A stretch of 64,000 bases of DNA. Source: Liolophura sinensis. Its lineage: Eukaryota > Mollusca > Polyplacophora > Chitonida > Chitonidae. Under the pieces are notes generated by a model, which saw nothing but the letters and a program-made list of their open reading frames with translations, was not told the DNA's origin and did not search any database. Location of the stretch: the NCBI RefSeq assembly GCF_032854445.1, contig NC_088301.1:36629187-36693186 (forward strand). Reading direction: 5' to 3'. Numbering within the stretch: the first letter of the stretch is position 1; each line of letters opens with the position of its first letter. A program made the translations under genes and the position numbers. Below are positions 59,713 to 64,000 of the stretch, piece by piece.

Positions 59713-61290
59713 CTATGTTTGAACCAATAATTAAATATGAAGATTGCTGGGGTTCAAGCCGGTATATGCTGAGTCACTTCAGTTCACAGTTGAATGGTGT
59801 CTGTCATGTTAACACAGGTGAATACATATATAGCCCATTTCATTCAGCAATTTTCAGCTTTGCAGTTGAAAGTTTTGTCAAATGATCTGCAAATATGGAG
59901 GAAATTGCTGTTTTTAGCACTTTAGCGACAAAAGACAGTATACATCGCGGGAAATAAGACCAGGTTCGTGTCAAGCTATACGTCAAGTAACATGTTTAGA
60001 AATTTCTAATTCCATTTGTCTTGTTTTCACCCGACATTACTTTCGCTGTATCAGTTAAAACCCGATTTGCTCACAAATGGCACAGAGCTTCCTTGGACAC
60101 TGGTTACGTGTGCCAAATTTCAAGTCAAGCCGACATGGGGTTCTGGAGAACATGGCTCTGAAATATTTTCATATTAACCCAATATAGACATCAGGTCACA
60201 TGGCAGGACAGGCCGATTTTTACTCGCTAAAGTTTATCCCCTGTCTACATACTGTCTACATACCAAGGTTTTACCCATTTCTGCCTTACCGTTTTAGTAA
60301 CACAAGTTTTTCAGTTTTGAAGAATGCCAAAAAAACAGATTTGTAGCTACATGACAATTTCACAAATCATCGTACATTTTTCAACCCAGAAAGTCTTCAT
60401 TAACAGATTGAATATACCTATAATCTTTGTACAACTGCAGTTTCAGTTCCAGCTTAACCGCGTCAGCATCCCAAATGACTGTCAAGTGAACTGATGAAAA
60501 GTTAAGGTGCACAATTTTAGGTCCGTACCTAAAACATAGTTTCATATATATCTGATAAGCCGTCTCTGAAAAAACCCTGAAATGCTTGAACCAGGAAATA
60601 CTCTTGAGGATCGGAGGAACTCTGGTCTTGGCAGTTGAGGGCTTCCAAATGGGCATTGGTAATTAGTCGATCTACCTGAGCTTGCGATTACAGACAACCG
60701 CTGACTCAGGGTCGAGCGATTTACACGTGCTTATAGTCATTGCATATTGATCACTGGAGCATAACATGCGATGATAACATTGCTACACTAGTGTTCATAT
60801 ATGCCGCCTGAGTCGCAGTCAGTATTAGTCCTCCGAAACCGAATCTCGTCAGAAACCACCAAATGCTCAAAATGTCTTAACGTCGGAAATTAGTTTGCAA
60901 AACTATTGCGATGATATAGCTATCTTGATGCACAACCCTGTCCTCTTACAGAAACCCTGCCCGATGATACGTACTTAGGCCGGCCTCACACGATCAAGTT
61001 TACTTGAGCAAGAATATTGATGAAACTATTGCAGCAATATTCTGGTACGTGTGATGTCCCCCGCAAGAGACTTGCTCAATATGTCCAGCAATGTGTAGCA
61101 ATATTGCACACTACCCGTTCTTGCGCCGTGTGATGGCTCTTTTCGAGATCTTGCGACGACTTGAGGCAATGTTGCTGGGAATAGAGCATGGTCCTATTAT
61201 CCAGCAAGTTTATAGTACATGAAAAAACACATGTTCGCATATGTCAAGTTCAGTCGATCCCAATTTCATTCCAGATAAAAGAGGTGAATT

Positions 61291-63776
61291 ATGCCTGGTC
61301 AGTGGTCAACCGAGGAGATAAAGCAGTTGATTTGTGAGGTGGAGGAACGACCGACACTGTGGAATGTATTGGTAGACGAATATAGAGACCGGGTGAAAAA
61401 AATCTGACTCGTGGAAACAAGTGGCGGAAGCTTTAAACAAGGAACAATGCGAGGTGAGACATTTGAATTTTTTTTTATTAACATACATTTGTGTAGTCAA
61501 AGATGAGATGCTACATCAACATAACTGTACAGCGTTTTTGTAAAAAATACTCCCTGGTAATTCATCCCTGGTCACTGACACTATCACTGACACTGAAGAC
61601 TAAGCGCCAACAAATAATCTGACTTTAAAATCACTCTTGACTGTACACATGCATGTCTTTCTTTCCAGGTGGAAAAGAAGTTCCACACGCTGAGGACTCA
61701 GTATGCCGCTGAGGTTAAGGCCGAAGAAAAAAGGAAGTCCGGGTCCGAGGGTGTTGTAAAGAAGAGTAAGTGGCAGTACATGGAGGCGTTGTCGTTTGTC
61801 GGCGCGGGGATGAAAAAACGGCAAGGATCTTCCTCAGAGGTAGGTCCACTTTACGCATGTTGATACTGCCAGGACACTTCACCAATAGGAGTCATGAAAT
61901 ACTCTCCAAACTCGCGTTGAATCTCTCTCGCAGATGTCGCATGGTGGTTACTGCCTTGATGGCGAAGTCCCAGAAGCGTCCCTTGGGGGTTGAAATCTGC
62001 GCGCCAGGAACCAGGCATCATATTTCCGTCTCGGTCTTCAAGGTCAATTGTACCAGGGGGTGTATACGCTTCGTTCGGTTCCTTCATTAGGAAGTTGTGA
62101 AGGGCGACGACTGCTTGCACAACTAATTGAGCCTTGTCTGGGTTCAAATTGATGGGCTTCAGCAAAACGCGGAATCGAGTTGCCAGTATACCGAATGTAC
62201 TTTCGACCATCCGTCGTGGCCGACTAAGCCTGTAGTTAAATACCCGACTGACAATGTCCCTTGTTCGGAATGGATAAGGCTTCATTATATTTTCTTGAAG
62301 TGCAAATGCATCGTCAGCTACAACCACGTAAGGCACAGGTTTTGTTCGACCTGGAAGTGGTGAAGGATCAGGAAGTGACAGCGCCTTCTCTTTTAGACCC
62401 GTGAAAAGTTGAGTTGCCGAAAAAACACCTCCATCTGATACTCGCCCATTACAGCCTATATCCACGAACATGAATCTGTATTTGGCATCAACAAGTGCGA
62501 GCAGAACTATACTATGTGTGCCCTTATAGTTGAAAAATAACTGCCGCTTTTGGCCGGAGCTTTCAGGACCACGTGTTTACCATCAAGTGCGCCGATGCAA
62601 TGGGGGAAATGCCATAATTTTTTGTACGCTTCAGCAACGACTTCCCACTCCACTGCAGAACGCGGAAACTGAAAGTACAAAATAGATTACGATGTAAATT
62701 CTATTATCGTATGGTGGTCAATCATTGTCAGATTGTTACTTCACTAGACTAGCTCACATGGGTTTATCAGAAATAATTTATTATACTCTTTGAATGGGGG
62801 TACATCGAGCCCACCGTTGTTTTGAAACAGTCATTTAATATTAATATGTACGTCCAGCTTAAATGAATAGTTTGATGTTGTTTGTATAATCACATATATA
62901 TTATGCTGTTTTTAAAGAGACTATACCTCAGATTTGTGGTAAAAAATCGATCAGCGCTAATCAAATCGGGCTTTCGCTCTATTTCTAAGATAGCTCAAAT
63001 CATTTACCTTTCAGAAAATACCACGTTTGTTGTTGTACGATTTCCCGTTCAAAAACGCTAATAGAGTTTGCCAAATTAGATAATTCGACCCGAATTATCT
63101 AATTTTTGTTTTTTTGAATATTGCTCTTAGAGTAAAACGGTGCCACAACTAGTGCCGTAGAGGGTTAGTAGATAGCCCCATGTAACAGGGCGTCTTGTAG
63201 CTAGGGGAGCCCCAATGTGATTAGCGCTGATCGATTTTTTACCACAAATCTGAGGTATAGTCTCTTTAAAGCTGCATGGTGAAAAAAACTGCAATGTTTA
63301 TTTTTTTTTTCAAGATTGGATTTTCCGAAACTCTCCCTGACAGAAGTGACGAAACCATCGAAATGGCCAGCACCGCTCCGACAACAAAGAAAGCCCGGCG
63401 TGAACCCAACAAGGACCTGTTGGCTCAGGCTGTAAAAGTGCTTGAAGAGCCGCCAGCGGACGCTCTTGATATTTTCGGTCAGTACGTTTCGACGGAGCTT
63501 CGAGCTATTCGTGGAGAACATATTCGAAACAGAGCCAAACGAGATATTACTATGACAATTTTGAGAGCTCAGGAACTGGATGAACAGCAGTACAGTGGTA
63601 ATTCGTCACCTCTTTCCTGGAGGGCTGACACGCCGTCGCCTTCATTTAGCCAATCACATGCCTCAAGCACGACCATGCAGAATATTGTTACTGACCAAAA
63701 CCAATATGCCACCTATTCTGGCATTGCTCCGAACTCTTGTGCTGGTGCGGGATACAACGCCTATCCCTCTTTGTAA
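61291..63776 (+). CDS. Harbinger accessory protein with MADF and BESS-like domains, 3 exons, one frameshift
   Basis: Predicted DNA-binding partner of the Harbinger transposase; in characterised elements such proteins bring transposase into the nucleus and onto the ends. Exons: 61291-61453, 61669-61839, 63315-63776. Exons 1-2 give a MADF domain: WSTEEIKQLICEVEERPTLW, then WKQVAEALNKEQCEVEKKFH once the frame is corrected, ending KKSKWQYMEALSFVGAG. Exon 3 gives a basic KKARRE stretch and a BESS-like helix pair (DIFGQYVSTELRAIRGEHIR). Exon 1 is one base too long: seven A at 61396-61402 put a TGA in frame, and six A would restore phase 0 into exon 2. Exon 2 to exon 3 joins in phase. The corrected length is about 264 aa. 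The intron between exons 2 and 3 contains the transposase catalytic exon on the other strand. Confidence 0.82.
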
Positions 63777-63908
63777 ATTGTGTTACTGCAACAAGTGCAT
63801 ACATTACCTTGATGCCATCCTTCAGGGCCTTGTAGATGGCTTTGCAAACGACAGGAACAATCCCAGAGATCGTGTTTGCAGGAATACGAAACAAGTACGC
63901 CAAACTGT
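61851..63908 (-). CDS. PIF/Harbinger transposase (HARBI1-like DDE nuclease), partial, one frameshift
   Basis: Cut-and-paste transposase. On -, exon 63908-63808 encodes SLAYLFRIPANTISGIVPVV through ALKDGIK, and exon 62668-61851 encodes the catalytic core to a stop at 61853-61851. The 1.1-kb intron has GTAATG and TTTCAG ends. DDE residues lie in CIGALDGKHVV (first Asp), GRVSDGGVF (second Asp) and RRMVESTFGIL (Glu), followed by LHNFLM. The core exon is 818 bases where 819 is needed: five A on + at 62533-62537 should be six to keep SYFFNYKGTHS in frame. Earlier exons should lie right of the window, since an acceptor (TTCAAAG) precedes 63908. The stop lies 11 bp from MADF exon 2 on the other strand. 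Confidence 0.87.
62907..63274. mobile_element. MITE with 53-bp inverted repeats and TTAA flanks
   Basis: Terminal arms at 62911-62963 and 63218-63270 are perfect inverted copies of 53 bp (TTTAAAGAGACTATACCTCA... at the left). The outermost TTAA on each side looks like a target duplication of the piggyBac type. The element, about 350 bp, is inserted in the intron shared by the two Harbinger genes. It has no coding capacity. Confidence 0.87.
63073..63105. repeat. Perfect 15-bp hairpin inside the MITE
   Basis: AAATTAGATAATTCG, spacer ACC, then CGAATTATCTAATTT. It sits roughly in the middle of the MITE. Confidence 0.93.
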
Positions 63909-64000
63909 CTTTGAACAGTCTTACTCGATACTAAAATCGAATATTATTAAGTAGTGACTATAGTAGTTGTTATTTTTGGTTTCGCTATAAATCCTTGTCA

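Follow-up and report, generated by a model that had tools for sequence, protein, structure and literature searches.

Predicted mutual nesting of MADF and transposase genes in a decayed PIF/Harbinger element of Liolophura sinensis and in related families of the same genome

Two-gene PIF/Harbinger elements have been described in insects as carrying their genes side by side (PMC9710019) and in fish as containing two ORFs, without further detail (PMC9179366). A locus in the chiton Liolophura sinensis appears to depart from this plan, and it raises the question of whether two genes on opposite strands of one transposon can each enclose an exon of the other, and whether such a layout is an accident of a single copy or an inherited design. 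The locus lies near the end of a 64,000-nucleotide stretch of contig NC_088301.1 (positions 36,629,187 to 36,693,186) that was analysed as a whole (the window), and a preliminary description of it had proposed that a MADF/BESS gene and a transposase gene are interlocked there. The reading favoured below, and considered very probable, is that the window holds a decayed two-gene PIF/Harbinger copy in which a MADF (Myb/SANT-like) gene and a DDE transposase gene would be mutually nested, in a layout that the copy inherited.

The order of features along the plus strand is the left terminal inverted repeat (TIR), MADF exons 1 and 2 (plus strand), the catalytic exon of the transposase (minus strand), MADF exon 3 (plus strand) and transposase exons 2 and 1 (minus strand). 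The last exon of each gene thus lies inside an intron of its partner, with the two genes on opposite strands (Table 1). The transposase gene has three exons, the first of which is beyond the window end and was read from the locus (L001) fetched past that point. The MADF junctions are GAG^GTGAGA, TTTCCAG^GTG, GAG^GTAGGT and TTTTCAAG^ATT, and those of the large transposase intron are AAG^GTAATG and CTTTCAG^TTT (^, splice site). The GT-AG ends and compatible phases claimed in the preliminary description were confirmed at the junctions of both genes, and its exon and intron coordinates proved correct throughout on recheck, including the 11 bp that separate the end of MADF exon 2 (61839) from the low end of the transposase stop codon (61851). 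On the other side, 31 bp separate the stop codon of MADF from the 5′ exon of the transposase. The spliced window-copy protein matches Pfam MADF with an E-value of 3.5e-17, and Pfam DDE_Tnp_4 is matched by the window exon (E 1.8e-26) and by the protein of the sibling copy L005 (E 5.8e-29). A DDE_Tnp_4 domain with intact D, D and E residues, a TTA/TAA duplication, short TIRs and a MADF second gene place the element among PIF/Harbinger transposons.

Table 1. Features of the window copy (positions are those of the window)
Feature	Position	Strand	Remarks
Left target-site duplication, TTA	60975..60977		right partner lost in window copy
Left terminal inverted repeat, GGCCGGCCTCACAC...	60978..61008	+	right-end partner GGCCGGCCTCACACCG in siblings
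MADF exon 1	61291..61453	+	start ATG; extra A is a frameshift confined to the window copy
MADF intron 1	61454..61668	+	GT-AG, phase 0
MADF exon 2	61669..61839	+	phase 0
MADF intron 2	61840..63314	+	phase 0; surrounds entire transposase catalytic exon
Transposase catalytic exon (DDE_Tnp_4)	61851..62668	-	1-bp frameshift in window copy; open in L005 and L007
Transposase intron	62669..63807	-	surrounds last MADF exon
MITE-like insert	62912..63270		359 bp, inverted ends of about 60 bp, 97% identical
Last MADF exon (exon 3)	63315..63776	+	153 codons plus stop (TAA); Pfam BESS not matched
Transposase exon 2	63808..63909	-	shortened by 27-bp deletion, acceptor gone

Because no homology was detected for MADF exon 3 of the window family, its joining to the rest of the gene rests on frame, splice signals and position. 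A search for homology to the last MADF exons of other families found none, and in the comparison with the matching exon of L009, 506 of 2000 shuffles scored as high as the real sequence. The exon might instead be a separate small gene or transcript, in which case the transposase exon would merely adjoin a two-exon MADF gene, and the lack of BESS or other homology together with an internal ATG (MASTAPTTKK) could be read in that way. Against this, the exon has an in-phase acceptor whose pyrimidine tract is long, dinucleotide shuffling of the transposase intron gave an open frame of at least this length on the MADF strand in 1-2 of 1000 cases, and eight other families have a corresponding exon in this position. 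A separate gene is accordingly regarded as very unlikely. Sibling copies differ in exon 3 at six non-synonymous and four synonymous positions, too few to show selection. A BESS domain was also sought in this exon and rejected, as there was no Pfam match at an E-value of 1 and a profile made from relatives scored no better on it than on shuffles. The BESS part of the earlier gene name therefore does not hold for the window family itself, and it does hold for the matching exon of some relatives, where Pfam recognizes the domain.

The window copy cannot be translated: MADF exon 1 has gained an A, the catalytic exon has a 1-bp frameshift, and a deletion of 27 bp, shared with the sibling L002, has taken the acceptor and the start of transposase exon 2. 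Its right end is gone at about position 64417, where a partial copy of the element, in inverted orientation, takes its place (L001:3900-6024, from window position 64413 onward, past the window end). This partial copy begins with the right terminal repeat at a TAA within the right end of the first copy. Together the two form a large palindrome whose arms are 99.7% identical over 1.86 kb, pointing to local transposition or to gene conversion between the two arms. The MITE-like insert of the window copy sits in a stretch that is intronic for both genes; it is present in all copies of the family, and elsewhere in the genome only distant relatives were found, about 70-80% identical in parts, which together indicate that the insert has travelled with the Harbinger family.

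Seven further copies of the window family (L002-L008), mostly 95-99% identical, lie on contigs C1, C13, C9, C25, C11 and C4 (two copies), and such near-identical, dispersed copies are a sign of past mobility. All seven retain the interlocked layout, all six splice sites of MADF introns 1 and 2 and of the large transposase intron, and matching TTA or TAA duplications on both sides, and the short TIRs (GGCCGGCCTCACAC) are present in the siblings. The MADF frame is open in L003, L004 and L008, and also in L005, which lacks 30 bp of it in frame. An open transposase is found in L005, where exons of 181, 113 and 819 bp encode 370 residues, and in L007, where 21 bp are deleted in frame. The left 315 bp of the family occur eight times in the genome, always in two-gene copies, and no internally deleted derivatives with this end were seen in a genome-wide search that passes over very common words, although Harbinger families are often accompanied by many MITEs.

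The same arrangement was found in other families by scanning the 609-Mb genome with the Pfam MADF and BESS profiles for hits close to transposase hits. Genome-wide, MADF/BESS matches near a transposase are on the opposite strand in every case, and at 12 loci they flank the catalytic exon on both sides. On the basis of frames and GT-AG splice sites, mutual nesting could be modelled in eight more families (L009/L017; L012/L018/L019; L015; L020; L010/L021; L014/L022; L016; L024/L025), which with the window family gives at least nine. Loci with the interlocked layout number about 30, a count that includes loci of the L016 family and a pair on C4 known from domain matches alone. The strongest evidence for the layout comes from L010, L014/L022, L016 and L024/L025, in which the MADF domain itself is split by the transposase exon, with the first 40 or so positions on one side and the rest on the other. 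Once the two parts are joined at in-phase GT-AG junctions, the products of L010, L016 and L025 match Pfam MADF in full (E 2.5e-16 to 4.8e-19), and in L010 and L016 the same exon carries a Pfam BESS match above cut-off after MADF. In L012 and L020 one gene has a partly damaged frame, and there the layout was deduced by exon matching to relatives; L011 and L013, which are broken by other elements, were left out of the scoring of intact loci. L026, a member of the L024/L025 family that was likewise not scored as intact, has lost both MADF exon 1 and the transposase C-terminus, a joint loss that would be expected where a single deletion damages both members of an interlocked pair.

The elements of these further families are compact, at 3.07-4.4 kb, and eight of the nine families (the window family and seven of the eight others) have TIRs accompanied by 3-bp TTA/TAA duplications, the exception being L010, for which the search pattern used found no such ends. 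Transposase identity between families is 34-64%, and the three acidic DDE residues are invariant across six families. By domain matches alone, 34 of 46 loci seem to have a MADF gene confined to one side of the transposase exon, a reading that was rejected at the fully modelled loci, where the profile fails to match the missing part because it is too short or has diverged too far; no fully readable locus has its entire MADF gene on one side. Among the copies compared within this genome, a non-overlapping gene pair was found in none of the seven siblings and in none of the eight MADF-carrying families. The interlocking put forward in the preliminary description is thus borne out by the window coordinates, by the siblings and by the further families.

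The window copy itself is broken, its right end is rearranged and it carries a MITE-like insert, which could suggest that the interlocking is only apparent and that decay or later insertions produced it from an element whose genes once lay side by side. This is hardly credible, being contradicted by siblings with open frames and by divergent families with intact ends, all of which have the same order. A layout common to at least nine distantly related families argues for an inherited design and not for an accident of one copy.

The interlocked families fall into three arrangements. In type A (the window family and L009/L017) the entire MADF domain precedes the transposase exon, and the transposase intron is in phase 0, after IK. 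In type B (L012/L018/L019, L015 and L020) the MADF domain is made of two exons with a phase-1 intron in mid-domain, the transposase exon lies in the next MADF intron, and the transposase intron is in phase 2 at LR^Y(L/M)ATG. In type C (L010, L014/L022, L016 and L024/L025) the enclosing intron is the phase-1 mid-domain one, and the transposase intron, near LR^FLATG, is in phase 2 where modelled. The second half of MADF is therefore on one side of the transposase exon in type B and on the other in type C. As a speculation, partial cDNA conversion may have duplicated this exon, the original of which was later lost.

A tree of the transposases, whose outgroups are MADF-less Harbinger transposases from this genome, some on long branches, unites the interlocked families in a single clade (ultrafast bootstrap 97, SH-aLRT 99). 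Type B is a single group (90/92), and the other branching within the clade is without resolution. The bacterial and archaeal genome collection yielded one relative, L035, and none was found in the viral-contig and plasmid collections. L035 is a related transposase that is intronless at both positions, on a 3.7-kb contig (JAHZIU010000197.1) in a betaproteobacterial MAG. No MADF gene was seen on that contig, which also bears a BED-finger-like frame. The contig is probably mis-binned eukaryotic contamination, and L035 presumably comes from an animal in the sample. Decayed and partial, L035 falls weakly inside the clade (84/88), which suggests that the layout was lost there or was gained more than once; as L035 is related and intronless, the layout is not universal.

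These results bear on a further possibility, that the interlocking is real and arose several times, which three enclosing-intron arrangements and an open branching order allow. The enclosing MADF intron lies after the domain in some families (the window family, L009/L017, L012/L018, L015 and L020) and in mid-domain in the others, the transposase intron follows IK (phase 0) or falls at LR^(F/Y)LATG (phase 2), the forks within the clade are without resolution, and the intronless L035 would fit as well. Several origins are nevertheless considered somewhat unlikely, as all interlocked families belong to one well-supported clade, types B and C have in common the phase-1 mid-MADF intron and, where modelled, the phase-2 transposase intron, and the last MADF exon is inside the transposase intron in every case. 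Mutual nesting would then be an ancestral trait that the families inherited.

Comparison with known systems places the layout apart from the published elements. With animal PIF/Harbinger transposons (PMC9710019, PMC9179366) the chiton families have in common the DDE_Tnp_4 domain, a MADF/Myb-like partner, short TIRs and a 3-bp duplication, whereas those elements are described as two adjacent genes or ORFs, with no mention of interlocking. The plant elements MtMaster and MtPH (PMC2213677) likewise have two genes, a transposase with one or two introns and TTA/TAA duplications, and the G(N)5GTT-like TIR of plant PIF/Harbinger elements recurs in some families here, but their orf1 precedes or follows the transposase, with the two genes side by side. 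Neither the window family nor the eight others have this side-by-side layout. No description of interlocked, nested or convergent Harbinger genes was found in the open-access literature; such exon maps may be present in Repbase entries. The preliminary description was half right in supposing the layout to be rare: the genes of published elements are described as side by side (PMC2213677, PMC9710019), yet in this genome interlocking is the norm for one clade. Outside transposons, Drosophila Dync2h1 and CG5674 have been described as mutually nested (PMC10556659), a likeness drawn irrespective of strand and to single-copy host genes, not to a compact mobile element. In Giardia, introns are argued to be retained owing to a gene on the opposite strand that their loss would damage (PMC6545626); there the genes are host genes, and in the chiton elements the constraint would be mutual and within a transposon.

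The exon maps suggest how such an element might work. Each gene would start near its own end of the element and be transcribed toward its partner, and both pre-mRNAs would cross nearly the entire element in opposite directions and be spliced as modelled. As has been reported for other PIF/Harbinger elements, the MADF protein may bring the transposase into the nucleus and to the termini; import of the transposase into the nucleus by the partner protein is reported in previous work (PMC9710019). In the other families, 12 of 14 gaps between a stop and the facing exon have a sense AATAAA or ATTAAA, compared with 7.1 expected from shuffles (P about 0.004, for one test picked after the layout was known, with 8 of 14 in antisense). 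In the window family the gaps are just 11 and 31 bp, and the first such signals lie 377 and 306 bp past the stops. If these signals are used, the 3′ ends of the mature mRNAs of this family are predicted to run antisense over the partner's coding exon.

The layout may be kept because loss of an enclosing intron, or a long internal deletion, would also remove an exon of the partner. The preliminary description proposed that the layout would couple antisense transcription and limit the loss of either gene, both of which are conjectures. In a toy model based on the exon map of the window family, a randomly placed 800-bp deletion affects both genes 61% of the time, compared with 23% when the same exons are laid out side by side, and one of 100 bp does so 5% of the time compared with 0%, from which it follows that interlocking makes long deletions cost both genes and protects neither. 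A bolder proposal, that mutual nesting is an ancient and actively kept clade trait that locks the genes together and balances their output through convergent antisense transcription, with mature 3′ ends of the window family even pairing with a coding exon of the partner, is tentative and on the whole rather improbable.

Mutually nested genes have been known as curiosities of host genomes, and here they would occur in compact mobile elements of at least nine families in one genome. With the layout contained in a unit of 3-4 kb, its evolution becomes traceable and its effects testable. Such genes would be broken up by gene finders that do not allow models on opposite strands to overlap. In Aplysia, 41 MADF genes have been counted as host genes without a transposase domain (PMC10027918), and MADF genes counted in this way may hide a transposase exon in an intron.
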